A DNA stretch of 64,000 bases from contig NZ_CP083954.1 in NCBI RefSeq assembly GCF_006442975.2, positions 4,719,501-4,783,500 on the forward strand, written 5' to 3'. The position numbers and the translations under genes were made by a program. The notes beneath the pieces were generated by a model. That model searched no databases and was not told where the DNA came from. It saw only the letters and a list, made by a program, of their open reading frames with translations. Position 1 is the first letter of the stretch; every line of letters starts with the position of its first letter. This document shows, piece by piece, positions 32,655-62,097 of this stretch. The DNA is from Mesorhizobium sp. B2-1-1 (GTDB taxonomy: Bacteria; Pseudomonadota; Alphaproteobacteria; Rhizobiales; Rhizobiaceae).

Positions 32655-33455
32655 TCAGAAGGTGCTGCTCTTTGCGATCTCCAGCGAATTGACGAAATCC
32701 AGTGAACGCCGCAGCGCGCTCCGAATGGTGGCGATATCCACCGGCGCGCTCCGCCGTTGGGGATCACGGCGCTGCGGGCGCCGCAGCCGCAATGGCAGTT
32801 CGATGCTGACCGGCAGCGTCGCGGGAAGCGTTGCCCAGTACGGTTCGTAGCCGATCGAGCCGTCGCCGATAGCGCAAAATGTCCATCCCTCCCCGGTGCT
32901 GACGACATCCTTCAGATGAGCATGCCCAACGGCATCGATGGCATCAGCGATATCTTGCGCCGGCTGCACCGTCTCGTTGCTGTAGGTAAAGACATTTCCG
33001 GCGTCGTGGTTCAGGCGCACGTGTCGCGATCCGATGTCCCGAATGAAGCTTGCCCCCATCCGGGCACTGCCGAGCAGATCGCCTTGGCCATGTCCGGGGT
33101 TTTCAAGCGCCAGGACGATGCCGACTTCCTCCAGCCTCGGCAGGAGGGCGTCAATCGTTTTGCGGATCGCCGCGCTGTTTCTCGCCGGGCCGGCATTGGT
33201 AATCAGGAAGGACGCGCCAAGACCGGCGGCAAAGCCGATGCGGCGGGACAAGGCGTCGACGGCATCGGCCCCCGACAGGTCGAGATGAGCCGACACGGCA
33301 TTGATCCCCAGCCCGGCATGTTCCGCTGCCTGGCGCAACTTCGCGGCGTGCGCAGCCGCAAACATGCCTTCGTCGAAATCGACATAGCCGCGGATGAAGG
33401 CCGGCTCGACATGGAGGGCGCCGGCCGCCGCAATCTCCTCGAGGGCCAATTCCAT
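32655..33455 (-). CDS. TIM-barrel isomerase/decarboxylase-like protein (OiaC-like); start uncertain
   Basis: A xylose-isomerase-like TIM barrel of at least 266 residues. Metal ligands are visible in VLALENPGHG, LNHDAGN, GHAHLKDV and SIELPL. The first ATG is at 33455, but the 18 codons before it read as family sequence (TSVSTALFDGYP), so the true N-terminus is upstream. No ATG, GTG or TTG exists between this ATG and the in-frame stop of the preceding gene at 33513-33515; the only near-start is CTG at 33509. It lies downstream of an ApnO-like gene and a RuBisCO-like gene. In D-apionate pathways a decarboxylase of this broad type (OiaC, from memory) turns 3-oxo-isoapionate into L-erythrulose. 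Confidence 0.7.
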   Translation of the reverse strand: MELALEEIAAAGALHVEPAFIRGYVDFDEGMFAAAHAAKLRQAAEHAGLGINAVSAHLDLSGADAVDALSRRIGFAAGLGASFLITNAGPARNSAAIRKTIDALLPRLEEVGIVLALENPGHGQGDLLGSARMGASFIRDIGSRHVRLNHDAGNVFTYSNETVQPAQDIADAIDAVGHAHLKDVVSTGEGWTFCAIGDGSIGYEPYWATLPATLPVSIELPLRLRRPQRRDPQRRSAPVDIATIRSALRRSLDFVNSLEIAKSSTF

Positions 33456-33512
33456 GGGATAGCCATCGAAGAGCGCGGTCGATACCGAGGTCCGGCGCGG
33501 CGAAGGCAGGGC

Positions 33513-34358
33513 TCAGGCTCCCTTGCCGTAGACGATCAATTCCGAGGCTTCCTTGACCTTGGCAGGAGACAGCGCTTCGCGCCAATCGTCACGGACCACG
33601 ACGCCCTTGGCGAACCGCATCAGGCGTAGCGCCGCATCGGACGGCACTTTCGGAGAGAAGCCGAACCACATGGCGATCTCGACGTTCAGATGGCCTATCA
33701 GGAAGTCCATCGCGGCCTTCCTGGGAATGCCATATTTGCGTTCGCACTCCTCGACAGCCTCGACCATGGTGTCGACGAAGGGCATGGCCACCATTTCGGA
33801 CAGGCCCGGCTCCAGGATCGCCAGTTGTTCGACCGTGACGCGATGGCTGTCGATGATCGGCGACCACATGGCCCTGCACACTTCCTCGCCAAGCGCATAG
33901 TGCTCTTCCGGACCTTGCATCAGGGCACAGACGATCGATTGCCTGGCGATGCCGCCATGGTAATCGCGACGCGCGGCCCATTCCGTCTCTTCGCCGAACA
34001 GCGGCGGATGGCAGGGATGGCCGACGAAATAGGTGAGATCCGGCCGATCCGCGGGCAAGTCGCCGGCATAGGGCGCTGCCGCATCCAGAATGAGGATCAT
34101 GGTGCCCGCGGCAAGCATCGGCGAAATCTGGCGCGCCACCTGGCCGATGATGTTGTCCGGCAGAGCCATTACCACCACCTTGGCGCCGGGAATGCCCTCC
34201 TCCATGGCGACGGCGCCGATATCGGCCTCTCCCAGCCGCTTGCGGCCGGCCTCGCCGATCTCCACGGCGCGGACATCGTAGCCCGCTTCGATCAACTTGC
34301 GCGTCACGCGGAAGCCCATCTTCCCTCCGGCCCCAAGCACCGCCACGGATGTCGTCAT
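33513..34358 (-). CDS. apnO: ApnO-like oxidoisomerase (phosphogluconate-dehydrogenase-like), copy 1
   Basis: A 281-residue NAD-binding protein. ATG at 34358 follows GGGAGA. The Rossmann loop is VLGAGGKMGFRV at residues 7-18. HPCHPPLF near 135, ALMQGPE near 163 and the block SHRVTVEQLAILEPGLSE near 195 are shared with the second copy at 41574-42401. D-apionate oxidoisomerase (ApnO) oxidises D-apionate and moves its hydroxymethyl group to give 3-oxo-isoapionate. It is followed by the TIM-barrel gene in the same frame and preceded by a RuBisCO-like gene. This copy could act on a different branched acid. Confidence 0.75.
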   Translation of the reverse strand: MTTSVAVLGAGGKMGFRVTRKLIEAGYDVRAVEIGEAGRKRLGEADIGAVAMEEGIPGAKVVVMALPDNIIGQVARQISPMLAAGTMILILDAAAPYAGDLPADRPDLTYFVGHPCHPPLFGEETEWAARRDYHGGIARQSIVCALMQGPEEHYALGEEVCRAMWSPIIDSHRVTVEQLAILEPGLSEMVAMPFVDTMVEAVEECERKYGIPRKAAMDFLIGHLNVEIAMWFGFSPKVPSDAALRLMRFAKGVVVRDDWREALSPAKVKEASELIVYGKGA

Positions 34359-34404
34359 TTGCTTTCTCTCCCATTTGCCTTGATGGCGCGCCGATGGCGC
34401 AGAT

Positions 34405-35697
34405 TCAGCCGAACGCTTGCAGCGCGGCTTCGAGCTCCGGATGCGTGGCGGCGTAGTCGCGTGCGGGAACCCCTGCCGCCGCGGCTTCGAAAGCATCATG
34501 CAGGCTTCGAACGCCGGCGGCCGGCCCGCCTGGATGCGCCATGATCCCGCCGCCGCAGCAATAGATGAAATCGTCCGAGCCGAGCCTCGTATAGGTCTCG
34601 GCCGCCTGCACAGCGGTCTGTCCAGACGAAAACACCGGCATGACCGTATCGGGACGGCCAGCCCGCTCGAACATCGGGGTGAGACAGCCATGGGCCGACG
34701 CCATCACCGATTCGTCCGGCTCGCAGAACTTGTTGGACAGCCCGTTGACGTGCATGTGGTCGATGCCCGCCAGACGCCAGAATTTCTGATAGGCGAGATA
34801 GCTCATGCCGAGATCGGGAGAGCGGCTGAAGAGGCCCCAGCCGGCCCGATGGCCGTGCAGCGCAACGGCGGAGTGGCGACGCATCTCGATGACGGCGGAC
34901 AGGCCGACGGAATTCAGGACCAGCATGGCGCAGGTCCCGCCACGGCGCTCGATCAGATCCAGCTGGCGACGCATGGCGTCGATGTCACCGGAAATGTTGG
35001 CCGCATACATGACCTTGCGCCCGGTCCTGTCGGCGTGCCCGTCTATCACCGCCATGACCGCTTCGTACCGGTGTTCGAACGGCGAATGCGGAGGGTCCCC
35101 CATCAATTCGTCGTCCTTGATGAAATCAAGACCCGCGGCAATCAGCGTGTCGGCCAGGGTCGCGGTCTCCTGCGGGGTAAGACCAACGCTCGGCTTGACG
35201 ATGGTGCCGATCAGCGGGCGTCCTTCGACGCTTGTCAGGCGACGCGTTCCCTCGACGGCGAAGGCCGGCCCTGGGTAGGCATCCGCGAAGGCATCGGGAA
35301 AGGTAACGTCGAGGAGACGCATGGCCGAAAAATGATGCAACTCGAACAGATTGCCGAGAACCGTCGACCAGACCGAAGGCAGCACTGTTCCCGTATTCTC
35401 GATGTTCCAGGAAAGGCCCACCTTGGCCCGGCGCGGCCTGACGGTGGCATTTTTTGGCGAGCGCGAGAACGGCAACGCCTCGCTGTCGACCTCGGCAACA
35501 TCGCTGATGAATTCGACGCGGGCTCCGAACTTGCGCAGCAGCTCCGGCGTTTCTCCGGGTATGGCGCGGAAAGTCCCGCTTGATTGTTCGCCCGCCATCG
35601 CAGCCGCGGCAACCTCCAGCGGGTAGCGGGTTTCGATCAGATAGGTGGCGCGGAGGCGACCGGACAATGCAGGCTTCCCGACTGGAATGACGTTCAC
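34405..35697 (-). CDS. RuBisCO-like protein (form IV), copy 1
   Basis: About 430 residues with the RuBisCO large-subunit fold. Catalytic positions are kept: lysine in GTIVKP (about 167), the carbamate/metal triad in FIKDDE (about 192-197), histidine in LHGHRAG (about 283) and a loop-6 lysine in NGLSNKF (about 323), with the phosphate site FSSGQ and CGGGIMAHPGG near the end. Start is GTG at 35697. In D-apionate pathways such proteins decarboxylate or transcarboxylate 3-oxo-isoapionate-4-phosphate. It lies between the ApnO-like gene and a GntR regulator on the minus strand. It is not a form I/II carbon-fixing RuBisCO: no rbcS or phosphoribulokinase is near and the flanking motifs differ. No kinase lies in this module. 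Confidence 0.82.
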   Translation of the reverse strand: MNVIPVGKPALSGRLRATYLIETRYPLEVAAAAMAGEQSSGTFRAIPGETPELLRKFGARVEFISDVAEVDSEALPFSRSPKNATVRPRRAKVGLSWNIENTGTVLPSVWSTVLGNLFELHHFSAMRLLDVTFPDAFADAYPGPAFAVEGTRRLTSVEGRPLIGTIVKPSVGLTPQETATLADTLIAAGLDFIKDDELMGDPPHSPFEHRYEAVMAVIDGHADRTGRKVMYAANISGDIDAMRRQLDLIERRGGTCAMLVLNSVGLSAVIEMRRHSAVALHGHRAGWGLFSRSPDLGMSYLAYQKFWRLAGIDHMHVNGLSNKFCEPDESVMASAHGCLTPMFERAGRPDTVMPVFSSGQTAVQAAETYTRLGSDDFIYCCGGGIMAHPGGPAAGVRSLHDAFEAAAAGVPARDYAATHPELEAALQAFG

Positions 35698-35729
35698 GGA
35701 GTGACCGTTAGCACCAAAAAGAAATCATG

Positions 35730-35771: not shown

Positions 35772-36485
35772 TCAGCTGGCTCCGCCGCCGGCCAGTTTCG
35801 AATAGAGCTCGTTGGCGCGGCCAATGTGGTCGGCCATTGCCGCGCTCGCGCCTTCCGGATCGCCGCCGGCGATTGCCTTGTAGATCCGCTCATGCTCCTC
35901 GACCGTCAGCCGCTCGGCGCCTTTCATCGCCACCAGATCCCGCTTGAAACGGGACAGCCATTCGAGCATTCCCTTCGCCACCGCCGCTATCATCGAATTG
36001 CCGCTCATCTCCGCAATGACGGCGTGGAACTCCATGTCGGCAGCTACAAACCGGGCTTGGTCGCCCTTTGCCTCGCGCAAATGACGCAAGGTCTCCGCGA
36101 GGCGTTCCAAACTCTTGGCCGTAGCGCGCCGCGTGGCTATCCGAACCAGGCCGGTTTCCAGCAAGAGCCTGACTTCCTTGAGTTCTTCGAGCCCGCGAGA
36201 GTTCGTCGCCAGCATCATGACCATCGCCGCGGAGACCTGATCGACGATGACATCAGGCGTCGGATTGATGACGCGGGCACGTTCTCCGTGCGAGATCCTG
36301 ATAAGTCCCATCTGCTGCAGCGACAGCATCGCTTCCCTGATCGAGGGCCGGCCGACGCCGATCATCGTCATTAGTTCCTTTTCCGACGGCAATTGAGAGC
36401 CGGGCGGGAATTCGGACGTCGAGATTGCCGCCATCAGCCGGTCAAGCACCTCCACATACAATTTCTTTTTCTGGACCGGCTCCAT
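35772..36485 (-). CDS. GntR-family (FadR/FCD) regulator, copy 1
   Basis: A 237-residue protein. ATG at 36485 is preferred for its AGGGAGGGA ribosome site and because MEPVQKKKLYVEVLDRL is a normal GntR start; another in-frame start at 36554 lies upstream. The winged helix-turn-helix (LPSEKELMTMIGVGRPSIREAMLSLQQMGLI) is at about 32-63, and the all-helical FCD effector domain, with metal-type histidines in DMEFHAVIAEMSGN, fills the rest. The SHGERARV stretch after the wing is also in copy 2. It lies just upstream of the RuBisCO-like, ApnO-like and TIM-barrel genes on the same strand, with 74 bases to the RuBisCO-like start, and probably senses a sugar acid. Confidence 0.87.
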   Translation of the reverse strand: MEPVQKKKLYVEVLDRLMAAISTSEFPPGSQLPSEKELMTMIGVGRPSIREAMLSLQQMGLIRISHGERARVINPTPDVIVDQVSAAMVMMLATNSRGLEELKEVRLLLETGLVRIATRRATAKSLERLAETLRHLREAKGDQARFVAADMEFHAVIAEMSGNSMIAAVAKGMLEWLSRFKRDLVAMKGAERLTVEEHERIYKAIAGGDPEGASAAMADHIGRANELYSKLAGGGAS

Positions 36486-36845: not shown

Positions 36846-37868
36846 ATGAAGTTTTCAACCGTGGCGGCGCTTGCCGGCGCCGCGCTGGTCAGCGTCTCGG
36901 CTGTGCCGGCAATGGCGTCACCGGATGCGCCGGTGATCGCGCTCGCCAACGCCTATTACGGCAACACCTGGCGGCACCAGATGGTGGAGGCTTTCGAAGC
37001 CTCGGCCAAGGAAGCCAAGGCGGCCGGCCAGATTGCCGACTACATCGTCATGAACGGCGACGGCTCGGTGGCGCAGCAGAACAGCCAGATCGCCGAGCTG
37101 ATCCTCAAGAAGGTCGACGTGCTCGCCGTCGATGCCGCGTCGGAAACCGCGGTCAACGGGATCATCGAAAAAGCCTGCAAGGCCGGCATCATCGTCGTTT
37201 CGTTCGATTCGGTCGCCTCGGCGCCCTGCAACTACCAGCTCAACTTCGACTTCAAGGGCTACAAGGCAGCCCAGGCCGAGGCCGTCTTCAAGATGATCGG
37301 CGGCAAGGGCAACGTCATCCAGGTGCGCGGCGTCAAGGGTTCGGCGCCCGACAACGACATGTTCAACGCGCAACAGTCGGTGCTGGCCAAATATCCCGAT
37401 ATCAAGGTTGTCGCCACGGTCTATGGCCAGGCGACCGCGTCGGTCGCACAGGCGGCCATCGCCAACGTGCTGCCCTCCCTGCCGCATGTCGACGCCGTGC
37501 TCGCACAAGGCGGCAGCGACGATGTCGGCATCGCCCAGGCGTTCGTCCAGTATGGCGGCGACTATGCCGGCAAGATGCCGATCATCGAAGGCGGCGGCGG
37601 CACCGACTTCGTCAAATGGTGGGCCGAGGAGAACGCCAAGAACGGCTACCAGACGGTCTCGATGAACACCACGCCCGGTATTGGCGGCGCCGCGTTCTGG
37701 CTCGGCCTGTCGCTGCTCAAGGGCGCCAAGGCACCCAAGATGATGATCATGCCGGTGGCCACCGTCGATGCCGGCAACCTCAAGGAATATGCAAAGCTGC
37801 CTGGCGGCCAGATCATCAGCCCCAGCTATTCGCTCGACTGGGTCAAGCAGAACCTGCTGAGCAAGTAA
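36846..37868 (+). CDS. Sugar ABC transporter substrate-binding protein, module 1
   Basis: A 340-residue secreted protein with a clear signal peptide (MKFSTVAALAGAALVSVSAV, cleavage after AMA at about 25). The mature part is an RbsB-like two-lobe binder (ALANAYYGNTWRHQM; VDVLAVDAAS; GIIVVSFDS). GGGAGGAAAA precedes the ATG. It is followed by a strong RNA hairpin and then the fused ATPase-permease gene. GGTATA boxes upstream tie it to the regulators of this region. Context suggests a branched sugar or sugar acid ligand. It is only distantly like the second binder at 42677. Confidence 0.85.
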   Translation: MKFSTVAALAGAALVSVSAVPAMASPDAPVIALANAYYGNTWRHQMVEAFEASAKEAKAAGQIADYIVMNGDGSVAQQNSQIAELILKKVDVLAVDAASETAVNGIIEKACKAGIIVVSFDSVASAPCNYQLNFDFKGYKAAQAEAVFKMIGGKGNVIQVRGVKGSAPDNDMFNAQQSVLAKYPDIKVVATVYGQATASVAQAAIANVLPSLPHVDAVLAQGGSDDVGIAQAFVQYGGDYAGKMPIIEGGGGTDFVKWWAEENAKNGYQTVSMNTTPGIGGAAFWLGLSLLKGAKAPKMMIMPVATVDAGNLKEYAKLPGGQIISPSYSLDWVKQNLLSK

Positions 37869-37942: not shown

Positions 37943-40423
37943 ATGTCCCATCTCGCCGTAGCCCCGGAAGGCGCAGCCGCCGCGGTGCTCGCCGATCCGA
38001 CCCGGCAGAGCGTTGTTTCGCTTTCCGGGATCACCAAGAGCTTCGGACCGACGCTGGCGAATGCAGAGATCGACCTCGCCGTCTCCACCGGCGAGATCAT
38101 CGGGCTGGTCGGCGGCAACGGCGCCGGCAAATCGACGCTGATGCGCATCCTGTGCGGGGCGATGTGGCCGACCCTGGGCTCGATTTCGTTTGCCGGCCAG
38201 AATATCGGCTTCGCCGGCTACGACACGGCGGAAGCACAGCGCCGCGGCATCCGCATGGTGCACCAGGAATTGTCGCTGTGCGCCAACCTCTCGGTGGCCG
38301 AAAACTTCTTCCTGGAAATTCCGGCGGATGCCGCCAACCGGCCGGGCTGGCGGGCACTCTACAGGGCGCGCGCCCGCTCGGCGCTGGACGCCGTCTTCCC
38401 CGCAAACGGCATCGATGTGAATGCCGAAGTCGGCCACCTCTCCATCGCCGAACGGCAAATGGTCGAGATTGCGCGCGCCGCCGCGACCCCCGGTGTCAAG
38501 CTGATCGTTCTTGACGAACCGACCTCCTCGCTCGATCTCGATCGCTCGAGACAGTTGCGGGCCTTCATCCGCGAGCGGGCCAAATCCGGCCTCGCCTTCA
38601 TCTTCATCAGCCACAAGCTTCAGGAAATCATCGACATCGCCACCCAGGTGGTCGTGCTGCGCAATGGACGCACCGCCTGGCGCGGCGATGTGGCCGAGAC
38701 GTCGATCGGCAGGCTGGTGCAGCTCATGGGGGGCGACGCCAACTCGATCCACCAGCATGGTACCGCCACCACCGGCAGCCGCGAAGCGCTGGTGCGATTG
38801 TCCGGGTTCCTGACGGCCGAACTCGGCCGCGACATCGAGATCGGCCGCGGTGAAATCATCGGATTGGCAGGCCTCGAAGGCAGCGGCCAGAAGGAGTTGC
38901 TGCACGCAATCTTCAAGCCCGATTCCGGAACGGATGCGGCCGTCGCCAGGAACGGTGAAGCCGGTTTCATCGCGGGCGACCGCCAGAAGGAAGGCGTGTT
39001 CCCCTTGTGGAGCGTGCTTGGGAACATCAGCATCGGCGCCCTGGCACGCCGCCCGGCGCTGGGCCTGGTCTCGGACCGCGCCAACCGCGCGGCAGCGGCG
39101 GATGCCGCCGGCCGGCTGCGGCTCGACGAAACCCGCTTCGGATCCAACATATTGGAGCTCAGCGGCGGCAACCAGCAGAAGGCGCTCGTCGCCCGGGCGC
39201 TCGTCGCCGACACGCCGATCGTCCTGCTCGACGACCCGACACGCGGCGTCGACATCGCCACCAAGCAGGACTTCTACCGCCTCTGCAACGACATTGCGCG
39301 AGGCGGGCGCACGCTCATCTGGCACACGACCGAAGATGCCGAACTCCTGGCCTGCGACCGCGTGCTGGTGTTTTCAGGCGGCTGCATCGTCAAGGAACTG
39401 GCCGGCGAGGCGATCACGGAATCAGCCGTCGTTGGAGCGTCCTTTGCCCAGCAGACGGACAAAGCCGCCAGTGCGGGACGCAGCGGCGCTGCCGGCGCCG
39501 GGCTTGCCCGCAGGCTGGTGAATGCTGCCCCCTTCATCGGCCTCGCCGCCGTGCTGGCGGTGATGATCTCGGCCAATCCGGCGGTCGCCTCCATTTTCGG
39601 GCTCGACCTCTTGCTGATGCCGGCGCTGTCGCTGGTACTGGTGACCGCGGCGCAGATGTTCATCGTCGGCGGCAGCGAGATCGACCTCGGCGTCGGCGCG
39701 TTCGCGGGGCTCGTCAGCGTGCTCAGCGCCACGCTGCTCTACGACCAGCCGTGGCTCGGCGCGCTGGCGCTGGCTGCGGCGATCGCCGCCTATGCCGGCC
39801 TCGGCGGCCTGATCCAGGCGCGCAAGATCCCGGCCATCGTCGTCACGCTGGGCGCGTCCTTCATCTGGGTCGGGATAGGCTATGCGCTGCAGCCGACGCC
39901 GGGCGGCGCCAGCCCCGAATGGCTGTCGGCAATGTTCAACTGGTCGCTCGGCTTCGTGCCAACCTCGATCATCCTCATCGCCGCGGTGGCAATCGTGGTG
40001 TTCGTGATCGACCGGCTGCCGCTCGGCGTGGTGCTGCGCGGTTTCGGCAACAATCCGACCGCGATGATCCGTTCCGGCTGGTCGCCGACGCGCTACGCGC
40101 TGGTGCGCTACCTCGTCGCCGGGCTGTTCGCCGCCGCCGCCGGCCTGTCGCTGACGGCGATCAATACGGCGAGCGACATCAATTCCGGCAATTCATTCAC
40201 CCTGCTCAGCGTCGCCGCCGTGGTGATGGGCGGCTGTTCGCTGTTGGGCGGCGTCATCTCGCCGGTCGGCGCCGTCGCCGGCGCGGTCACGCTGGCGTTG
40301 ATCGGCGCCCTGCTCGGCACGCTGAGCGTGAGCAGCGACTTCAATGCGGCGACGCAGGGATTGATCCTCATCGCCCTGCTGACCTTGCGCAGCCTGACCG
40401 CGGACCGCAGGAGCGAACAATGA
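37943..40423 (+). CDS. Fused ABC transporter ATPase-permease
   Basis: An 826-residue fusion. Residues about 25-495 are an RbsA-like double ATPase: Walker A GGNGAGKST and Walker B LIVLDEPTSSLD in the first half, a degenerate Walker A (GLEGSGQKELL), LSGGNQQK and LLDDPTRGVD in the second. The second Walker B has aspartate where glutamate is usual. Residues about 520-820 are an RbsC-like permease (GGSEIDLGVGAFAGL; GNNPTAMIRSGWSPTRYAL). Ribose-type importers normally have these as separate proteins. A stand-alone permease overlaps its stop, so the complex is probably a heteromer of two permease types. GGAGG upstream supports ATG 37943. Confidence 0.87.
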   Translation: MSHLAVAPEGAAAAVLADPTRQSVVSLSGITKSFGPTLANAEIDLAVSTGEIIGLVGGNGAGKSTLMRILCGAMWPTLGSISFAGQNIGFAGYDTAEAQRRGIRMVHQELSLCANLSVAENFFLEIPADAANRPGWRALYRARARSALDAVFPANGIDVNAEVGHLSIAERQMVEIARAAATPGVKLIVLDEPTSSLDLDRSRQLRAFIRERAKSGLAFIFISHKLQEIIDIATQVVVLRNGRTAWRGDVAETSIGRLVQLMGGDANSIHQHGTATTGSREALVRLSGFLTAELGRDIEIGRGEIIGLAGLEGSGQKELLHAIFKPDSGTDAAVARNGEAGFIAGDRQKEGVFPLWSVLGNISIGALARRPALGLVSDRANRAAAADAAGRLRLDETRFGSNILELSGGNQQKALVARALVADTPIVLLDDPTRGVDIATKQDFYRLCNDIARGGRTLIWHTTEDAELLACDRVLVFSGGCIVKELAGEAITESAVVGASFAQQTDKAASAGRSGAAGAGLARRLVNAAPFIGLAAVLAVMISANPAVASIFGLDLLLMPALSLVLVTAAQMFIVGGSEIDLGVGAFAGLVSVLSATLLYDQPWLGALALAAAIAAYAGLGGLIQARKIPAIVVTLGASFIWVGIGYALQPTPGGASPEWLSAMFNWSLGFVPTSIILIAAVAIVVFVIDRLPLGVVLRGFGNNPTAMIRSGWSPTRYALVRYLVAGLFAAAAGLSLTAINTASDINSGNSFTLLSVAAVVMGGCSLLGGVISPVGAVAGAVTLALIGALLGTLSVSSDFNAATQGLILIALLTLRSLTADRRSEQ

Positions 40424-41469
40424 ACGCGCTTGCCGCCTTCAGCCCTTGGGCGCAGAAAAACCGCTGGATCTGGTCGGCGATCGGGGTGCTGCTGCTCTGG
40501 CTGGTGCTGTCCATCGTCACCAACCGCTTCAGCCTCTCCAGCCTGTCGGGCATCGTTCTGTCGGCCTCGTTCCTAACGGTCGTCGGCATCGGCCAGATGT
40601 TCGTCGTCACCACCGGGCGCGGCAATATCGACCTTTCCGTGGCCTCGGTGATCACGCTCAGCGCTTTCGTGGCGCTGCTGACCATCAAGGGCCAGGACGC
40701 CAACCTCGCCGTCGGCGTCGGCGCCGCGATCCTGCTCGGCCTTGCGGTCGGCGCTCTCAACGCGCTGCTCGTCGTCGGGCTGAACATACCGGCCATCATC
40801 GCCACGCTGGCGACGGGCTATGTGCTGGCAACCGCAACGCTGCTGTCGAACCGCGCGATATCGGGCTTCGCCGTCAGTCCGCTGTTGAAGACGCTGGCGA
40901 CGGGCCGCGTCGCGGGCGTGCCGATCATGGCAGTCATCGCCATCCTGGGCGTCGCCGCAACGTCGTTCGTGCTACGCTATACCGTTTACGGACAACTGCT
41001 CTCGGCAGTCGGCCAGAACCGCGCGGCGGCGCGGCTAGCAGCGATCCGCAACAACCGGGTCATCGCCTCGGCCTTCATCATCTCCTCGGTGCTGGCCTCG
41101 CTCAACGGGCTGCTGCTGGGCGCCTATATCGGCGGCGCCTTTCTTGAAATGGGCCAGCCCTATCTCCTGCAATCCATCGCCGCGGTGGTGCTGGGCGGGA
41201 CGCTGATCTTCGGCGGCTCCGCGACGGCGCTCGGCACATTGTTCGCCAGCATCCTTTTGATCCTCATCGTCACGACCATGCAGATCATCGGCCTGCCGCC
41301 CGGCGCGCAGGACATCGTCCAGGGCATCGTGGTCATTTTCGTTCTGGCGCTGGCCGGCCGGCAGGTGCTGTCGCGGCGCGCCGCCATCGACCCCGCCGCC
41401 CTCGAGAGCGCAGCCGGCGACGGCACGGCGAAACCTAAGGCGGGCGCTGCGGCAATCAGGCCGCAGTGA
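40420..41469 (+). CDS. Sugar ABC transporter permease, second subunit of module 1
   Basis: A 349-residue RbsC-type permease with about 9-10 hydrophobic segments and the family motif GRGNIDLSVASVITLSAF near residue 65. The GQNRAAARLAAIRNNRV loop near 200 is the ATPase contact. The ATG at 40420 overlaps the stop of the fused gene (ATGA), so translation is coupled. It should pair with the permease half of the fusion to form the channel. The alanine- and lysine-rich tail (about 30 residues) looks disordered. Confidence 0.87.
   Translation: MNALAAFSPWAQKNRWIWSAIGVLLLWLVLSIVTNRFSLSSLSGIVLSASFLTVVGIGQMFVVTTGRGNIDLSVASVITLSAFVALLTIKGQDANLAVGVGAAILLGLAVGALNALLVVGLNIPAIIATLATGYVLATATLLSNRAISGFAVSPLLKTLATGRVAGVPIMAVIAILGVAATSFVLRYTVYGQLLSAVGQNRAAARLAAIRNNRVIASAFIISSVLASLNGLLLGAYIGGAFLEMGQPYLLQSIAAVVLGGTLIFGGSATALGTLFASILLILIVTTMQIIGLPPGAQDIVQGIVVIFVLALAGRQVLSRRAAIDPAALESAAGDGTAKPKAGAAAIRPQ

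Positions 41470-42628: not shown

Positions 42629-43618
<990 letters not shown>

Positions 43619-44335: not shown

Positions 44336-44339
<4 letters not shown>
43695..44339 (+). CDS. DUF2291 lipoprotein of the ribose-type ABC operon
   Basis: A 214-residue protein with a lipoprotein signal (ILALTAGIALSAC, lipid cysteine at residue 21) and a periplasmic domain of the DUF2291 type (WAAKVIPYLQQKAGPF; ARVQIGPAMRGTALRDSLDF). DUF2291 proteins recur in ribose-type ABC operons, including those for D-apiose, but their job is not established; a helper role in transport is a guess. Its stop overlaps the ATPase start (ATGA). Confidence 0.8.
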
Positions 44340-45882
<1,543 letters not shown>

Positions 45883-45883
<1 letters not shown>

Positions 45884-53411: not shown

Positions 53412-53459
53412 GCGCAATTCCGGACGGAAAACCGTACACACTTTTCCTGGAATTGCTCT
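53412..53459. repeat. Short palindromic Rhizobiales repeat after oiaK
   Basis: GCAATTCC (53414-53421) and GGAATTGC (53449-53456), plus GGAAAA and TTTTCC inside, form a stem. I recognise the unit as a common intergenic repeat in Mesorhizobium and relatives, often at gene ends. It lies between convergent genes and may end both transcripts. Confidence 0.6.
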
Positions 53460-54279: not shown

Positions 54280-54424
54280 CCGCCCTCTGCCTAGAGGCTC
54301 GGGAGATTAGCATATCATTCCTTGTTTTGCGGCGTTTTCGGCGGAGGCGGCGAGTCCAGCTCCAAATCAAAGAGATAGAGCATGATGTCGTCCGAAAACC
54401 GCTTCGCGCTTATGGCATCAGGCC

Positions 54425-54964
54425 TTAGTACAGAGGCTCGGCCATGTGCTTGGGCGCCGGCCACTGCGTCGTGACGCCGGGCTGCACCGGCCGCTCGAGA
54501 TAGGTCGACAGCACCACGTAGCTGCGCGTCGAGGTGACGCCGGGTGTCTCGTAGAGGCGCGACAGCAGGCCTTCGAGCGCCCGCGTGTCCTCCGTACGGA
54601 CCTTCAGCAGCATGCAGGTGTCGCCGGCAACCGTGTGGATCTCCTCGACCTCCGGATATTGCGAAACCGCCATCAGCTCCGGCGTCTTGCCCCAGCCCTT
54701 GGTGTCGATATGCACGAATGCCAGCAGCGGCTTCTTGACCGCCTTGGGGTCGATGATGGCAGCCGTGCCGCGAATGGCGCCGCTGCGCCGAAGGCGCTTG
54801 ACGCGCTCATGCGCGGCGGGCGGCGAGAGGCCGACACGATCGCCGAGCTCAGCATAGCTGACCGTGGCGTCGTCGACGAGAACGCCTAATATCTTTCTGT
54901 CGATCGCGTCGACATCGCGGGGCGCCGGCCTGTTCTGCGGAATGCTATTTGTTTCTTCGTTCAT
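54425..54964 (-). CDS. Lrp/AsnC-family regulator
   Basis: A 179-residue protein with the AsnC helix-turn-helix (DRKILGVLVDDATVSYAELGDRVGLSPPAAHERVKRLRRSG, about 22-62) and a RAM-type effector domain (VHTVAGDTCMLLKVRTEDTRALEGLL). It is divergent from the MFS gene with only 49 bases between, so it most likely controls that transporter. No specific amino acid ligand can be read. Confidence 0.87.
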   Translation of the reverse strand: MNEETNSIPQNRPAPRDVDAIDRKILGVLVDDATVSYAELGDRVGLSPPAAHERVKRLRRSGAIRGTAAIIDPKAVKKPLLAFVHIDTKGWGKTPELMAVSQYPEVEEIHTVAGDTCMLLKVRTEDTRALEGLLSRLYETPGVTSTRSYVVLSTYLERPVQPGVTTQWPAPKHMAEPLY

Positions 54965-55013
54965 AGTGCAAATTCCCGATTGTAGCCGAATAAAATACGG
55001 CCATTATGAATAT

Positions 55014-56204
55014 ATGTCGAACAGCGATCAAGCAGTAACCCTGGGTGCGAATGCCCGGCCGCCCATCCCGGCGCTGGCCTATCTCTTGACCGGATGCATC
55101 GCCGTCATCGGCTCGAACTCCCTGGTGCTGGGTCCGATTGCTCCCGCCGTGGCCGTGTCGTTCGCGACCAGCGTGCCTGTCGTCATGATGGCGGCCGCCG
55201 CGTTCGGCCTCGGCACCTCGGCGAGCGCCTTGTTCCTGGCGCGCTACATCGACCGGGTCGGCGCGCGCCGGATGCTTCAGGCGGCCTTGCTGCTGCTGGC
55301 GTTGGCGCTTGTCGCAAGCGCTGCGGCGCCGACGGTGACGGCGCTGGTCGCCGCGCAGCTTCTCGCCGGCATCGCCGCCGGCGTCGCCATGCCGGCAATC
55401 TATGCCAGCTCCGCGGCGATTGCCCCACCTGGACGGGAAAGCGGGACGATCGGCGTTGTGCTGACCGGATGGACGCTGAGCATGGTGGCCGGCGTTTCGC
55501 TGTCGGCGGTGCTTGCCGATCTCGTGCACTGGCGGGCCGTCTTCGCCGCCGTGGCGCTGCTGGCGGCGCTGGCGCTTGGCAGCCTTACCGCGTCGTCACT
55601 CCCGGATGTCAGAAAGGCCGGCCCGGCGCCGGCGCCGCTCGAGGCGCTCGGCATTCCCGGCATCGTGCCGCTTCTGATCGCCTGCGGCGCCTTCATGACC
55701 GCCTTCTATGGTGTCTATGGCTATCTTGGCGACCATCTGCACAGCGGGCTGGGTCAGCCGGTCAGCGCCAACGGCCTGGCCGCACTCGCCTATGGCGCCG
55801 GGTTCGGCACGGCGGCGCTCTTCGACGGCATCATCGATCGCCTGGGGGCTCGCCGCGTCATGCCCTTCGCTTACCTGCTCGTCGCCATCGTCTATGTCGC
55901 GATCGCCGCGACAAGCAACAGCTATGGCATGATGCTCGCCATGGTGGCGGCCTGGGGTCTCGCCAATCACTTCGGTCTGAACGTGCTGGTGATGCGTCTG
56001 TCGGCGCTCGATCCGTCACGGCGCGGCACGATCATGGGCCTGAACAGCGCGGTGACATATCTGGCGGTCTTTGTCGGCACCACCGGCTTCGGGCCGCTAT
56101 ATTCGGATTTCGGCTTTGCCGCATCGGCAATGGTGGCGGCGTTGCTGATGCTGGTCGCGGCTTCGGCCGCCGCCTGGCGCACGCGCCAGCCACACAGGAC
56201 GTGA
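55014..56204 (+). CDS. MFS transporter
   Basis: A 396-residue protein with 12 hydrophobic segments. The loop between helices 2 and 3 has RYIDRVGARRMLQ and its pseudo-repeat DRLGARRVMPFAY after helix 8, typical of drug- or metabolite-exporting MFS proteins. ATG at 55014 gives a normal short cytoplasmic start; there is no ribosome site, and an earlier in-frame start at 54864 would run back through the lrp gene. It is divergent from the Lrp gene, which suggests export of an amino acid or related compound. Confidence 0.82.
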   Translation: MSNSDQAVTLGANARPPIPALAYLLTGCIAVIGSNSLVLGPIAPAVAVSFATSVPVVMMAAAAFGLGTSASALFLARYIDRVGARRMLQAALLLLALALVASAAAPTVTALVAAQLLAGIAAGVAMPAIYASSAAIAPPGRESGTIGVVLTGWTLSMVAGVSLSAVLADLVHWRAVFAAVALLAALALGSLTASSLPDVRKAGPAPAPLEALGIPGIVPLLIACGAFMTAFYGVYGYLGDHLHSGLGQPVSANGLAALAYGAGFGTAALFDGIIDRLGARRVMPFAYLLVAIVYVAIAATSNSYGMMLAMVAAWGLANHFGLNVLVMRLSALDPSRRGTIMGLNSAVTYLAVFVGTTGFGPLYSDFGFAASAMVAALLMLVAASAAAWRTRQPHRT

Positions 56205-56226
56205 TGGGCCACCAGCCCGCGCGCGG

Positions 56227-56256
56227 TTGACAGCGGCGCCCCTGCCCTTCCATACA
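56227..56256 (+). promoter_or_regulatory. Promoter of the FMN riboswitch-ribH2 transcript
   Basis: A consensus TTGACA at 56227-56232 and CATACA at 56251-56256 are 18 bases apart. Transcription would begin about 10 bases before the riboswitch core. The -35 box lies just after the MFS stop. Confidence 0.55.
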
Positions 56257-56265
56257 AAGCCGTTA

Positions 56266-57016
<751 letters not shown>

Positions 57017-57093: not shown

Positions 57094-58101
57094 GTGCAGA
57101 CCAAGAAGATCATCAATGACGGCAACCGTGCCGTCGACGAGATGCTAGAGGGGATTCTGGCCGCGCATCCCAGCCATCTCAGGAGCGTGGACGGCAACCC
57201 GCGCTCGATCATCGCCCGCAACGGACCGCGTCCCGGCAAGGTCGGGCTCGTCGTCGGCGGCGGCTCGGGCCATGAGCCGACCTTTCTCGGTTTTGTCGGC
57301 AAGGGCCTGGCGGACGCGGCGGCGATCGGCAATGTCTTTGCCTCGCCGCCACCCGATCCCATCCTTGAATGCGCCAAGGCGGCGAACGGCGGCGCCGGCG
57401 TCCTGTTCACGTACGGCAACTATGCCGGGGACGTGATGAATTTCGACATGGCGGCCGAAATGGCCGCCATGGACGATATCGAGGTGCGCACGGTGCTGAC
57501 CACCGACGATGTCGCCTCGGCACCGCGCGACCAGCGGCAGAAGCGTCGCGGCGTCGCCGGCAATTTCTTCGTCTTCAAGGCGGCCGGCGCGGCCTGTGAC
57601 CGCATGCTCTCCTTCGACGAATGCGAGCGCATGGCGCGCAAGGCCAACGACCATACCTTCACCATGGGCGTGGCGCTGTCGCCCTGCTCGCTGCCGCAGA
57701 CCCGGCGGCCGAATTTCGAGATCGGCGCCGACGAGATGGAGATCGGCATGGGCATCCATGGCGAGCCGGGCATCGCGCGCGGCAAGCTCGGGACCGCCGA
57801 CGAGATCACCGACGAGATGCTGGACAAGATTCTCGCCGAGATGGCGCCTTCGCCTGGCGACAAGGTTGCGGTGCTGGTCAATTCGCTGGGCTCGACACCG
57901 TTGATGGAGCTCTACATCATGAACCGTCGCGTCAAGCAGCGTCTCGACGACATCGGCGTTTCCATCCATGCGACCTGGGTCGGCAATTACTGCACGTCGC
58001 TCGAAATGGCCGGCGCCTCGGTGACGCTGTTCCATCTCGATGGCGAGTTGCAGACCATGCTCGACCATCCGTGCGACTGCGCCATGTTCCGCGCCGGCTG
58101 A
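57094..58101 (+). CDS. DhaK-type kinase subunit, probable L-erythrulose or dihydroxyacetone kinase
   Basis: A 335-residue DhaK protein. GTG at 57094 is preferred because GGGAGG sits 6 bases before it; ATG at 57088 is immediately against that site. The VGGGSGHEPT loop is near residue 58, and the histidine that binds the ketone substrate is in MGIHGEPG near 225. DhaK binds the triose or tetrulose that DhaL then phosphorylates. Next to erythrulose-phosphate isomerases, and with apionate genes nearby, L-erythrulose is a fair alternative to dihydroxyacetone. It starts 77 bases after ribH2. Confidence 0.88.
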   Translation: MQTKKIINDGNRAVDEMLEGILAAHPSHLRSVDGNPRSIIARNGPRPGKVGLVVGGGSGHEPTFLGFVGKGLADAAAIGNVFASPPPDPILECAKAANGGAGVLFTYGNYAGDVMNFDMAAEMAAMDDIEVRTVLTTDDVASAPRDQRQKRRGVAGNFFVFKAAGAACDRMLSFDECERMARKANDHTFTMGVALSPCSLPQTRRPNFEIGADEMEIGMGIHGEPGIARGKLGTADEITDEMLDKILAEMAPSPGDKVAVLVNSLGSTPLMELYIMNRRVKQRLDDIGVSIHATWVGNYCTSLEMAGASVTLFHLDGELQTMLDHPCDCAMFRAG

Positions 58102-58111
58102 GGAGTGACCC

Positions 58112-58747
58112 GTGAGCATCGATAGCGCTGACCTGAAGAGAATGTTCGATGCGATCGCGGTGGCGATCGAAGCCGACAAGGACCGGCTCTGCCAGCTCGA
58201 CGGCGTCATCGGCGACGCCGATCACGGCATCGCCATGGCGCTCGGCTTCAACGCAGTGCGCGACGCGCTGGCGCCACTCGACCTGACGGCGACCGAGCCG
58301 ACCGCGCTTCTCAACATGGCGGCTAAATCGTTCCTCAACGCGGTCGGTGCGTCGTCTGGCCCGCTCTATGCCACCGCCTTCATGCGCGCCGCCGCTGCCG
58401 TCAAGGGCAAGACCACGCTAGCTGATGCGGATGTCGTCGCGCTGTTCCAGGCGATGGCGCAAGGCATCCGCGATCGCGGCAAGGCCGAGATCGGCGAGAA
58501 GACGATGATCGACGCCTGGTTGCCGGCGGCGGAAGCGGCCGGCGCCAGCAATGCGGCGGGAAAAGGTCTTGCCGAAAGCCTCGACGCGGCAGTGGACGCG
58601 GCGCGCCTGGGGGCCGAGGCGACCAAGGACATGATCGCCGTCAAGGGCCGCTCCTCGCGGCTCGGCGAACGCTCGCTCGGCCATATCGACCCCGGCGCCG
58701 CCTCGGCCGTGACCGTCATCGAGGCTTTGCGCGACAACCTGGCTTAG
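58112..58747 (+). CDS. DhaL-type nucleotide-binding kinase subunit
   Basis: A 211-residue DhaL protein starting with GTG at 58112. The metal-binding aspartates are in [17 protein letters not shown] near 30-45, and the nucleotide loop is VGASSGPLY near 80-88. With DhaK it forms a ketose kinase. No DhaM phosphotransfer protein is in the window, so ATP may be the direct donor as in split DhaKL systems, which I cannot confirm. Its stop overlaps the stop of the convergent rpiB gene by 4 bases. Confidence 0.88.
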
Positions 58748-59187
58748 GCCTGCTTCGCTTCATCGAGCTTGTTGATCGCCTGGACATTGCCGGCCGACGG
58801 TCCCTTCTCGTCGAACTCCGAGGCCAACCAGGTATCGACGATCGCCTTGGCGAGTTCCGGGCCGATGACGCGGGCGCCCATGGTGATGATCTGCGCGTTG
58901 TTGGATTTGGCGGCGCGCTCCGCGGAATAGGTGTCGTGGGTGAGTGCCGCCCGGATGCCAGGCACCTTGTTGGCCGAGATCGAGACGCCGATGCCGGTGC
59001 CGCAGAACAGGATGCCGCGGTCGTTCTCGCCGTCGATGATCGTCTGCGCGAGCTTTTGTGACAGGTCGGCATAAAAGCCGGCCTGGCTGAGATCGCTGAC
59101 GGCAAGTCCGGGCTTCGTCGCCAAATGTGCGGCGATGACATCGAGCAGCGGCTTGCCGGCGCTGTCGGCTCCAATGGCTATTTTCAT
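58744..59187 (-). CDS. eryI: RpiB/LacAB-family isomerase, probable D-erythrulose-4-phosphate isomerase
   Basis: A 147-residue RpiB-family protein. ATG at 59187 follows AAGGAAGG and gives the usual MKIAIGAD start. The catalytic cysteine is in [16 protein letters not shown] near residue 68 and the phosphate-binding residues in [18 protein letters not shown] near 98. The gene order DeoR-TIM-RpiB on one strand is that of Brucella eryR-eryH-eryI, where this protein makes D-erythrose 4-phosphate; DerI is the apiose-pathway name. Confidence 0.87.
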
Positions 59188-59221
59188 GGTCGTATCCTTC
59201 CTTGAATGAGATTTCGTTCGT

Positions 59222-59980
59222 TCAGATCGCCGCCGAGGAGCGCCTGAGGATGTCGACATAGCCCTCCACCTGCCAGGCCGAGCGGCCGATAAAGAGGCCA
59301 TCGATGCTGGGCTGGCCGATCAGCTCGGCCGCGTTGCCGGGATTTACGCTGCCGCCATAGAGCACCGGCGGGATGGACGGCAGCAGGCCGCCGGCCACTT
59401 TCTTGATCAGCGCCTGCTGTTTTTCGGCATAGGCGGAGCTGGCCGGAATACCCTTGTCGCCGATCGCCCAGACCGGCTCATAGGCAAACAGGATTTTTGC
59501 CGCCTTCGCCCCGCCTTCGAGGAACAGCAGCGCACCCTCGACCTGGCCGGTCAACACCGCATCCGCCTTGCCGTTTTCGCGCTCCGCCAGCGTCTCGCCG
59601 ACGCAGATCAGCGGTATCAGTCCGTGCTTGACGGCGGCCGCCGTCTTCAGGCCGACGGTACGATCGGTCTCGCCGAAATGCTCGCGCCGTTCGCTGTGGC
59701 CGAGTTCGACCATGTCGAGACCGCAGTCGCTCAGCATCAGCGGCGAAATCTCGCCGGTCCAGGCCCCGGCATCGGCCCAGTGCATGTTCTGGGCACCGAC
59801 CTTGACCCGCGTCGACGACAGCGCCTGCTTGACCTCGCGCACCGCCGTGAACGGCGGGATGACGAAAGGCTGGATGCGCTCGTCGAAGCCTGGCACGAAG
59901 CCGGCCAATGCCCCGGCGAAATCCAGCGCCTCGGCGAGCGTCTTGTTCATCTTCCAGCTTGTACCGACCCAATAAACCAC
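59222..59980 (-). CDS. eryH: Triose-phosphate-isomerase-like protein, probable L-erythrulose-1-phosphate isomerase
   Basis: A 252-residue TIM-family barrel starting with GTG at 59980, preceded by AAGGAG. All catalytic residues are kept: WKMN near 9-12, histidine in ELGHSERR near 95, glutamate in AYEPVWAIG near 168 and the loop GGSVNPGNA. Placed between the DeoR and RpiB genes it corresponds to EryH (TpiA2), which converts L-erythrulose-1-phosphate to D-erythrulose-4-phosphate; LerI is the apiose-pathway name. A housekeeping triose-phosphate isomerase cannot be excluded by sequence. Confidence 0.85.
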
Positions 59981-59998
59981 GCCTGCGCTCCTTGATCC

Positions 59999-60769
59999 TC
60001 AATCCTTGTTGGCGACCACCGTCAACGAAACGCCGGCTGCATCCAGTGCGGCGCGCATTCCAGGCTCAGGCGCGCGACCGGTGAAGACGGCATCGAACGC
60101 CTCGAGTTCGGTCAGGAAATGCAGCGCCGTGCGGCCGAACTTGCCGTGATCGACCAGAAGGTATTTGCGGGTCGCTGCTTCCATCATCAGCCGCTTGATC
60201 TGCACCACCTCCTGGTCCTGGTGGAAAGCGGAGGCGCCGTGGATAGCCGATGACGACAGGAAGGCGACGTCCGCGCGCAGCGATCTCAGCGAAGCCTCGG
60301 CAAGCAGTCCGAAGAAGCCGTGGAACTTCTTGCTATACTGGCCGCCGAGCGCAATCAGGTCGATGCCCCCGGCGCCGGCCAGGTCCTGGATGACGGCCAG
60401 ATTGTTGGAGATCACCGTCAGCGGCCTGAAATCGGCGAGATGCCGTGCGATGCCGCCAGCCGTCGAGCCGTCGTCGATGATGACAGTCTGGCCGGGTTCG
60501 ATCATCGCCACGGCGGCCGCCGCAAGGCGCTGCTTTTCCCCTGTCGCCTGCTTTTGCCGGTAGCGAAAATCGCTTTCGAAGAGACCGCTCGGCTGGATCG
60601 AAGCGCCGCCACGCACCTTGCGCAGGAAACCGCTCTCCTCAAGGTCGTCGAGGTCACGATGCACCGTCATCCTGGAGACGCCAAAGCGTGAGGCAAGATC
60701 GTCGACGCTCGCCGCGCCGACGTCCATCAGAAAGTCCATGATGCCTTGACGCCTGTTATCGCTCTTCAT
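59999..60769 (-). CDS. eryR: DeoR-family regulator of the erythrulose-phosphate genes
   Basis: A 256-residue protein with a DeoR helix-turn-helix (AASVDDLASRFGVSRMTVHRDLDDLEESGFLRKVRGGA, about 18-55) and the sugar-phosphate domain (VIIDDGSTAGGIARHL; LIALGGQYSKKFHGFFG; LLVDHGKFGRTAL). ATG at 60769 is the usual start for the family, but its ribosome site is weak; ATG at 60817 has AGGAAGAA and would add 16 residues. It is the first gene of the DeoR-EryH-EryI operon and divergent from the aldolase gene. Confidence 0.84.
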   Translation of the reverse strand: MKSDNRRQGIMDFLMDVGAASVDDLASRFGVSRMTVHRDLDDLEESGFLRKVRGGASIQPSGLFESDFRYRQKQATGEKQRLAAAAVAMIEPGQTVIIDDGSTAGGIARHLADFRPLTVISNNLAVIQDLAGAGGIDLIALGGQYSKKFHGFFGLLAEASLRSLRADVAFLSSSAIHGASAFHQDQEVVQIKRLMMEAATRKYLLVDHGKFGRTALHFLTELEAFDAVFTGRAPEPGMRAALDAAGVSLTVVANKD

Positions 60770-60832
60770 TGCTGCCGATGTCCGCCAACCGACGCTGGCT
60801 CCTCGATAAGATAACATATTTCTTCCTGAAAC

Positions 60833-60851
60833 TATCATGATTTTTGTGATA
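60833..60851. promoter_or_regulatory. Weak TATCA/TGATA inverted site in the eryR-fba gap
   Basis: TATCA at 60833 and TGATA at 60847 are inverted around 9 AT-rich bases in the 263-base divergent gap 60770-61032. It could be a DeoR operator but the match is short. Confidence 0.25.
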
Positions 60852-61032
60852 ATGAGATGTTTTCCTGGGATATTCCCGTGGCTTTCATCACGGCCCTGTA
60901 ACAAGAATTGCTGCCGGGACGGTGTCTGACGGTTGCGGTTGCGCGGAAATCCGGCCAGAAGCATCGGTGGGCTGGACGATGCGCGGACAGCCAGCAAGCA
61001 CAGGTTAGAAACCAGATACGGGAGACTATTCG

Positions 61033-62097
61033 TTGGCTCGCATCACACTGAGACAATTGCTCGATCACGCCGCCGAATACGGCTATGGCGTGCCGGCCTT
61101 CAACATGAACAACATGGAACAGGGCCTCGCCATCATGGAGGCTGCGGAGGAGACCAAGTCGCCGGTCATCCTGCAGGCAAGCCGCGGTGCGCGTGCCTAT
61201 GCCAATGACGTGGTGCTGGCCAAGCTGATCGATGCGCTGGTCGAGATCCATCCCGACATCCCGGTCTGCATGCACCTCGACCACGGCAACAACGAGGCTA
61301 CCTGCGTCACCGCGATCCAGCATGGTTTCACCTCGGTGATGATGGATGGATCACTCAAGGAGGACGGCAAGTCGCCGGCCGACTACGCCTATAATTCGGG
61401 CATCACCAAGCGCGTCGTCGATATGGCGCATTGGGGCGGCGTTTCGGTCGAAGGCGAGATCGGCGTGCTGGGCTCGCTGGAGAGCGGCGGCGGCGAGCAG
61501 GAGGACGGCCACGGCGTCGAAGGCGCGATCAGCCACGACCAATTGCTCACCGATCCGGTGCAGGCCGAGCAGTTCGTGCGCGACACCCATGTCGACGCGC
61601 TGGCGGTTGCCATGGGCACCAGCCACGGCGCCTATAAATTCTCGCGCAAGCCGGACGGCGCGGTGCTGGCGATGAACGTCATCGAGGAAATCCACCGCCG
61701 CCTGCCGAACATGCACCTGGTCATGCATGGTTCGTCCTCGGTGCCGGAGGATCTGCAGGAGATCATCAACAAATATGGCGGGCAGATGAAGCCGACCTGG
61801 GGCGTGCCGGTGGAAGAGATCCAGCGCGGCATCAAGCATGGCGTGCGCAAGATCAACATCGACACCGACAACCGCATGGCGCTGACCGGCGCGATCCGCA
61901 AGGTGCTGACGGAAAATCCCTCGGAATTCGACCCGCGCAAATATCTGACGCCGGCGATGGCGGCGATGAGGAAGCTGTGCAAGGAGCGTTTCGAGCAGTT
62001 CGGCACCGCCGGCAACGCGCCGAAGATCAAGCCGCTGCCGGTCTCGGAAATGGCCAAGCGTTACAAAGCGGGCAGCCTCGATCCGAAATTCGGCTAA
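61033..62097 (+). CDS. fba: Class II fructose-bisphosphate aldolase
   Basis: A 354-residue class IIB aldolase starting with TTG at 61033 after GGGAGA. Zinc ligands and substrate residues are visible: HLDHGNN near 83, [12 protein letters not shown] near 140, GTSHGAYKF near 196, [10 protein letters not shown] near 236 and [15 protein letters not shown] near 277. The length and insert ([15 protein letters not shown]) match the Calvin-cycle (CbbA) subtype. It joins DHAP and an aldehyde phosphate. Beside genes making erythrose 4-phosphate, sedoheptulose-1,7-bisphosphate is a possible product. It is divergent from eryR. Confidence 0.92.

Follow-up and report, generated by a model that had tools for sequence, protein, structure and literature searches.

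D-apiose is reportedly broken down by a scheme set out by Carter et al. 2018, in which ApsD, ApnL, ApnO, OiaK, OiaX, LerI and DerI act in sequence, and the reaction names used here also appear in NCBIfam model names. OiaX is a RuBisCO-like protein (RLP), and OiaT is the name that we take to belong to another, the transcarboxylase/hydrolase of Xanthobacter autotrophicus. For D-hamamelose, an RLP oxygenase pathway is said to have been described by Kim et al. 2018, known to us as cited by others. A passage of PMC6302742 treats the two RLP activities of the D-apiose scheme, including that of the X. autotrophicus enzyme, and a passage of PMC8914248 cites a D-hamamelose route of Ochrobactrum anthropi, connecting the RLP step with 3-phosphoglycerate and glycolate. 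Here we analyse a 64-kb window (G000:C1:4719501-4783500) of the 6.18-Mb, 2-contig genome of a probable Mesorhizobium, which holds a three-part locus: a left block (32655-41469), a core (41574-53399) and a right block (57094-62097; Table 1).

We favour, with reasonable but not high confidence, the reading that this locus is a D-apiose catabolic set joined to an accessory left block whose RLP, RLP2, gives the pathway a second exit. In the proposed mechanism a DUF2291-type importer would take in D-apiose, ApsD would oxidise it to the lactone, ApnL would convert the lactone to D-apionate, and ApnO would turn D-apionate into 3-oxo-isoapionate by oxidation with hydroxymethyl migration. OiaK would then phosphorylate 3-oxo-isoapionate and OiaX would decarboxylate the product to L-erythrulose 1-phosphate, which LerI and DerI would bring to D-erythrose 4-phosphate; DhaKL would act as the kinase of L-erythrulose. 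RLP2 would convert the same OiaK product to 3-phosphoglycerate and glycolate, so that one phosphorylated intermediate has two exits. What we observed directly are the genes present, their scores against families, the conservation of their order, the patterns of residues and the co-occurrence of genes; from these we infer the reactions and substrates throughout. The pathway itself is already known; on these sequences, the new part is the presence at one locus of two RLP lineages and of a pair of left-block genes, PGD2 (an ApnO-family oxidoreductase) and XIL (a xylose-isomerase-like barrel). Among the open-licence PMC papers that our searches listed, we saw none that described both RLP types at one locus.

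The core, taken with the isomerases of the right block, is very probably a D-apiose breakdown set with a complete gene complement. Genes were called and the window proteins scanned with Pfam and NCBIfam profiles, applying the curated NCBIfam cut-offs; the loci of relatives were compared as fetched stretches with limited flanks, absence being counted within the fetched stretch. ApnL scores 955 bits against a cut-off of 750 (NF049900) and OiaX 783 bits against 700 (NF042437), and in the right block DerI scores 252.7 bits against 240 (NF051858). An initial annotation of the window had proposed a route from D-apiose to erythrose 4-phosphate through OiaK, OiaX, LerI and DerI, with which these three curated matches agree. 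It had listed an importer with an RbsB-like binder and a DUF2291 protein, a Gfo/Idh/MocA dehydrogenase with an overlapping ApnL, ApnO-like enzymes, RLPs, a DUF1537 kinase, DhaKL, a TIM and an RpiB; gene calls and profiles find every one of them, with two ApnO-like genes and two RLPs, and add what that list had left out, a second complete sugar importer (36846-41469) and two GntR/FCD regulators.

The remaining core genes are placed by their relatives. The first ApnO-like protein, PGD1, matches PDB 5t57, which we take to be a characterised ApnO, with 418 bits, and genes of its type adjoin ApsD/ApnL in many relatives' loci. The ApsD-like protein, for which no NCBIfam model exceeds its cut-off, falls within the clade of ApsDs from OiaX clusters, and its gene overlaps that of ApnL by 4 bp. 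A DUF1537 kinase adjoins OiaX in 48 of 49 cases. The locus resembles the known pathway in its enzyme families and in its curated ApnL, OiaX and DerI models, and its importer-ApsD-ApnL order and OiaX-OiaK pair match relatives; it differs in that the isomerases are displaced by 3.7 kb and in that a second RLP, a second ApnO-family gene, XIL and a second importer are added. This is more than a chance arrangement: the core order recurs in many relatives' loci, and the left block and core also occur together in a congener (G105) and, within the stretch that was fetched, in Mesorhizobium sp. B2-3-12 (L121). The latter is the closest named locus, its proteins in that stretch being 79-99% identical to those of the window, which points to Mesorhizobium as the genus. 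According to PMC11747546, a Rhodobacteraceae strain annotated with ApnL, ApsD, ApnO, OiaK and OiaX grows on D-apiose.

The DhaKL, DerI and LerI genes of the right block start beyond a gap of 3.7 kb (53400-57093) that contains four genes, shorter than the about 5 kb of unrelated genes given in the initial annotation. The assignment of this displaced block to the apiose set is nevertheless supported, because its genes stand next to OiaK in two congeners and because OiaX and DerI co-occur across genomes. In G209 (L039) the spacing between OiaK and DhaK is about 130 bp, and the genes run OiaX-OiaK-DhaK-DhaL while DerI and LerI converge on them, as in the window but for the 3.7-kb stretch; in G105 OiaK is directly followed by LerI, DerI and DhaKL. 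OiaX-OiaK-LerI-DerI is contiguous in G187, G023 and L145, the right-block genes lie within the same cluster in L149, and in B2-3-12 the OiaX, Dak1 and DerI matches span about 7 kb of one contig. Physical linkage is found in a minority of loci. A genome-wide profile search of the window genome returned a single Dak1 match and a single match to the DerI model, both at the locus, and two TIM genes, the other one at 3.64 Mb.

The genome screen for DerI covered 50 handles. Among 23 distinct genomes with OiaX, DerI exceeds its cut-off in 22, and the remaining one (G247/G683) has a weaker match; it does so in none of 25 genomes in which the other RLP type alone was seen, three of which have weaker matches (Fisher p = 8e-13, kinship not corrected). 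Of those 25, 19 were screened for RLPs genome-wide and six by locus only. L042/G247 and L131/G683 have identical hit coordinates and were counted once; L093, with a DerI match of 92.9 bits, was excluded from the OiaX set as OiaX is absent from its 20 kb. None of the 53 loci that carry the other RLP type shows DerI within its fetched stretch. A lumazine synthase gene (56543-57016; NF009084 245.8 bits, cut-off 160) ends 77 bp upstream of DhaK.

RLP2 probably yields 3-phosphoglycerate and glycolate by OiaT-type chemistry, and we regard this as the weakest step of our explanation. An alignment of 103 RLP sequences, numbered by what we take to be the RuBisCO site numbers, gives a signature of E60D, N123G and H327Q in 49 of 49 OiaX proteins; we limit it to these three changes since later OiaX rows vary elsewhere (site 177 is S in L219, site 379 is A in L214). 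E60 and N123 are retained throughout 30 OiaT-like proteins, seven RLPs of PGD2 clusters, a Xanthobacter RLP and five RLP2 orthologues, and a single one of these proteins lacks H327; in two or three of the 30 OiaT-like proteins other catalytic residues are missing (E204, H294 or K334). That RLP2 is a duplicate OiaX is rejected on its score on the OiaX model (436 bits, cut-off 700) and on the absence of the OiaX-specific changes. RLP2 and its orthologues make up a single clade in the trees (support 100), about 50-61% identical to most other OiaT-like RLPs, which joins these RLPs with support of 97/90 in one tree and an SH-aLRT of 90 in a second. RLP2 groups with the OiaT-like clade, and its residues at the compared sites equal those of the RLP of Xanthobacter sp. 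YC-JY1, an anchor other than the assayed protein; it is unlike OiaT in branching outside the Xanthobacter RLP branch and in being unpaired with a kinase.

The draft genome of Aliihoeflea (L080) is informative in this respect. An RLP2 orthologue is clustered there with OiaK, ApnL and an ApnO-like gene, and OiaX above cut-off, DerI and Dak1 were all not found in the draft, a gene content that fits an exit independent of LerI and DerI; one further RLP, of a third type, is present (L232). The third RLP clade (L043-L045, L048-L050, L054, L058) carries N at RuBisCO site 177 and is co-located with more distant DUF1537 kinases, 32-38% identical to the window kinase. At Cupriavidus locus L037, enolase, pyruvate kinase and glycerate kinase genes lie near an RLP that falls outside both the OiaX and OiaT-like clades. 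The window genome also holds a RuBisCO large-subunit gene (G000:C1:5086620-5087543, L001; 504-aa open frame, 449.7 bits), which together with OiaX and RLP2 makes three RuBisCO-superfamily genes in one cell.

Several observations weigh against a D-apiose set with RLP2 as its second exit. The DUF1537 kinase reaches 465 bits on the OiaK model NF042436, below the cut-off of 700; since none of six other paired kinases from relatives' apiose-type clusters reaches it either (434-575 bits), the cut-off does not discriminate here, and we consider the low score uninformative as a sign of a different substrate. ApsD, ApnO and LerI are assigned by family, neighbourhood and tree, with no specific model. 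The RLP2 clade is sister to the branch with the Xanthobacter RLP, and the residue pattern of RLP2 is ancestral, common to RuBisCO and the third RLP clade, so that it excludes OiaX rather than proves OiaT. A kinase stands beside 45 of 53 RLPs of the RLP2 type but not beside RLP2, and all five RLP2 orthologues are among the eight exceptions. As for the isomerases, 6 of the 53 loci with OiaX have DerI inside the fetched stretch, which in many cases ends shortly past OiaK, and in G537 (L193) DerI, LerI and DhaK are absent from the 20 kb past OiaK. Among PGD2 genomes, OiaX is above cut-off in five of 13 and DerI in five of 12, both being above it in three; G661 and G664 have DerI but not OiaX.

The left block, with its own regulator and importer, is on comparison of loci an accessory addition to the apiose locus. 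XIL, PGD2, RLP2 and a GntR regulator are read from the minus strand; the second importer, in which an ATPase is fused to a permease, is read from the plus strand. The block brings along neither a kinase nor a dehydrogenase or lactonase. Among 21 Mesorhizobium-type loci the full block occurs in three (the window, G105 and L121), and nine have the second importer without XIL, PGD2 or RLP2 in the fetched flank; in three, only a few hundred bases separate MtnA and the ApnO-like gene, and the block is absent between them. The last six show neither importer nor block in fetched flanks of 4-10 kb, which when short cannot exclude a block of about 9 kb. In B2-3-12, OiaX and a second RLP share one contig. 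The initial annotation had called the arrangement, with both routes and two modules, unusual, a fair description given how few of these loci show the full left block.

PGD2 and XIL are the least familiar members of the block. PGD2 is 49% identical to PGD1 and belongs to a discrete subfamily, found at 69-93% identity in at least 11 named loci with the next best match at 54%, among the best 80 of at least 289 relatives. Co-location was counted over the window and 134 loci, all anchored on an RLP or an ApnO-family gene. PGD2 occurs in 13 of the 134 and XIL in 11, all of them among the 13, so that with the window XIL lies beside PGD2 at 12 of 14 PGD2 loci and at 0 of the other 121; at the other two PGD2 loci (L083, L088) XIL was not seen in the fetched flank. 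PGD2 is the sole ApnO-family gene seen in a cluster of kinase and RLP in L081, L083, L084, L085, L086 and L087. XIL itself is a xylose-isomerase-like barrel whose alignment conserves an E, D, H, E set, presumably the metal ligands. Besides the window genome and G105, two of 297 genomes of the order have an XIL match at 40-43%. The called ATG start of XIL is at 33455, relatives carry residues upstream, and an in-frame CTG stands at 33509-33507; within 33455-33515 on the minus strand there seems to be no ATG, GTG or TTG start that would cover the first strand. The in-frame CTG after the PGD2 stop is shared by the window, L121 and L034, and G105 has an in-frame ATG instead.

PGD2 and XIL may be a second ApnO with a helper, or part of a D-hamamelose-like route. 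A bolder version, to which we lend tentative credence and which we think somewhat more likely wrong than right, is that PGD2, XIL and RLP2 form a horizontally shuffled module for a branched sugar acid, docked onto the OiaX operon in a few Mesorhizobium, in which XIL would be a new 3-oxo-acid decarboxylase or isomerase working with PGD2 and RLP2 would give 3-phosphoglycerate and glycolate. Two findings lower our estimate of this version: comparably similar XIL relatives are also found apart from PGD2, and Devosia G660, which carries PGD2 and XIL, has an OiaC-like match (45%).

3-Oxo-hamamelonate would be the one-carbon homologue of 3-oxo-isoapionate, which makes PGD2 and XIL as dehydrogenase and decarboxylase a real rival to our reading. 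On that account the left block would be for a further branched sugar, akin to D-hamamelose: PGD2 would oxidise the branched aldonate, XIL would decarboxylate the 3-oxo acid, a DUF1537 kinase would phosphorylate the ketose and RLP2 would release 3-phosphoglycerate and glycolate. The pairing of XIL with PGD2, at 12 of 14 PGD2 loci and at 0 of the other 121, speaks for it, and the dehydrogenase, lactonase, PGD2, XIL, kinase and RLP of L081, L084 and L087 could fill six steps. In PGD2 clusters, 7 of 7 ApsD-like enzymes (and 5 of 6 ApnL) are placed outside the clade of OiaX clusters, and Dak1 was not found in three genomes with PGD2 and XIL (G656, G657, G660), which shows that a Dak kinase is not a necessary partner of XIL; among four xylose-isomerase-like proteins tested, the best profile match of XIL is an OiaC candidate. 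The O. anthropi RLP is cited in D-hamamelose assimilation ending in the same two products (PMC8914248), and the likeness extends to an oxidised branched sugar acid. We nevertheless consider the account unlikely. The block lacks its own kinase, dehydrogenase and lactonase; the RLPs of PGD2 clusters form no clade of their own and, like the front-end enzymes, are intermixed with those of XIL-less clusters; and XIL is not tied to PGD2 alone, as relatives 38-43% identical, no more distant than some PGD2-linked copies, adjoin DhaKL on plasmids of Rhizobium and Shinella or, in Sphaerotilus, transketolase genes, and PGD2 is missing from their annotated neighbourhoods.

More distant XIL relatives lie in clusters of Klebsiella and of Pasteurella. 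The relatives beside DhaKL on the plasmids, and with DhaKL, RpiB and TIM in Pasteurella (26-43% identical), would also suit an OiaC-type route in which XIL decarboxylates 3-oxo-isoapionate to L-erythrulose for DhaKL, followed by LerI and DerI. DhaKL is present at the locus, and the profile of XIL is remotely akin to that of an OiaC candidate (L184, 94.9%, against 27.6, 51.0 and 0.8% for three other xylose-isomerase-like proteins, of which the 51.0% one is itself OiaC-like). The OiaC label of the candidates in L182-L186 comes from gene order, beside ApnO, DhaKL and TIM: L182-L184 carry DhaKL, TIM, a xylose-isomerase-like barrel and an ApnO-family gene, and L185 and L186 the barrel and the ApnO-family gene. 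The window shares DhaKL, TIM and DerI with such loci but its XIL is of another family, with a best tblastn E of 0.003 against the candidates, on which OiaC orthology is rejected, leaving remote profile kinship. Nor did an OiaC-like query (L106, 25-31% identical to the candidates) find a match in the window genome at 1e-10. The role of XIL as ketose maker for DhaKL, suggested by the plasmid neighbours, is weakened by the three Dak1-negative genomes, though one of these is Devosia G660. We therefore find the OiaC-type route improbable, and the second route of OiaC plus an L-erythrulose kinase in the initial annotation is not borne out; RLP2 points to an OiaT-like second exit instead. Little credence likewise goes to the idea that the whole locus serves D-apiose with redundancy, PGD2 being a second ApnO, RLP2 a second OiaX-like decarboxylase and XIL an isomerase of apiose or a pathway metabolite: PGD2 does stand as the only ApnO-family gene seen with kinase and RLP in six loci, but RLP2 lacks the OiaX signature and falls short of the OiaX model. 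At L183:8690-9517 a stop or frameshift breaks the OiaC candidate, a defect that the relatives in L182, L184, L185 and L186 do not share.

Read as a D-apiose set with an accessory left block, the locus lays out nearly all of branched-sugar breakdown in a probable rhizobium in a form open to testing, and two types of RuBisCO-like enzyme can be told apart by their residues and by whether DerI co-occurs. Should RLP2 use the OiaK product, a single cell would divide one intermediate between two exits, erythrose 4-phosphate and 3-phosphoglycerate plus glycolate; if the module version holds, two RuBisCO-like enzymes of different chemistry would stand at one locus. PGD2 and XIL are two orphan families whose frequent pairing predicts an undescribed step.

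Table 1 Features of the locus, with positions in the 64-kb window and the basis of each assignment.
Feature	Position	Strand	Basis
XIL, xylose-isomerase-like TIM barrel	32655..33509	-	PF01261; no NCBIfam match
PGD2, ApnO-family (PGDH_C) oxidoreductase, putative second oxidoisomerase or dehydrogenase	33513..34358	-	PF16896
RLP2, RuBisCO-like protein, OiaT-like lineage	34405..35667	-	OiaX model score, trees, site residues
GntR/FCD regulator, left block	35772..36485	-	PF07729, PF00392
SBP2, second sugar-binding protein	36846..37868	+	PF13407
ABC ATPase-permease fusion, 826 aa	37943..40423	+	PF00005 (two stretches) + PF02653
Second permease, left-block importer	40420..41469	+	PF02653
PGD1, ApnO-like putative D-apionate oxidoisomerase	41574..42401	+	PF16896; PDB 5t57 418 bits
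RbsB-like binding protein	42677..43618	+	PF13407
DUF2291 lipoprotein	43695..44339	+	PF10054
Importer ATPase, core	44336..45883	+	PF00005, two stretches
Importer permease, core	45883..46947	+	PF02653
ApsD-like putative D-apiose dehydrogenase (Gfo/Idh/MocA)	46950..47984	+	PF01408, PF22725; OiaX-cluster ApsD clade
ApnL, predicted D-apionate lactonase, 612 aa	47981..49819	+	NF049900
GntR/FCD regulator, core operon	49822..50535	-	PF07729, PF00392
OiaX, predicted 3-oxo-isoapionate-4-phosphate decarboxylase (RuBisCO-like)	50818..52068	+	NF042437; E60D/N123G/H327Q
OiaK-like DUF1537 kinase	52077..53399	+	NF042436 below cut-off; OiaX-adjacent
Four intervening genes: methyltransferase (-), Lrp (-), MFS (+), lumazine synthase (+)	53458..57016		
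DhaK-type kinase subunit, probable L-erythrulose kinase	57094..58101	+	PF02733
DhaL subunit	58112..58747	+	PF02734
DerI, predicted D-erythrulose-4-phosphate isomerase (RpiB-like)	58744..59187	-	NF051858
LerI-like second TIM	59222..59980	-	PF00121
DeoR regulator	59999..60769	-	PF00455
Class II fructose-bisphosphate aldolase, pathway membership unproven	61057..62097	+	TIGR01521 588.5 bits, cut-off 496

To the left of the locus, positions 23685-32617 hold a bifunctional aldolase/SDR gene, an ABC importer, MtnK and MtnA, which together resemble a methylthioribose/5-deoxyribose salvage set; MtnK and MtnA exceed their curated cut-offs. MtnA also lies near an ApnO-like gene in L119, L138 and L143.

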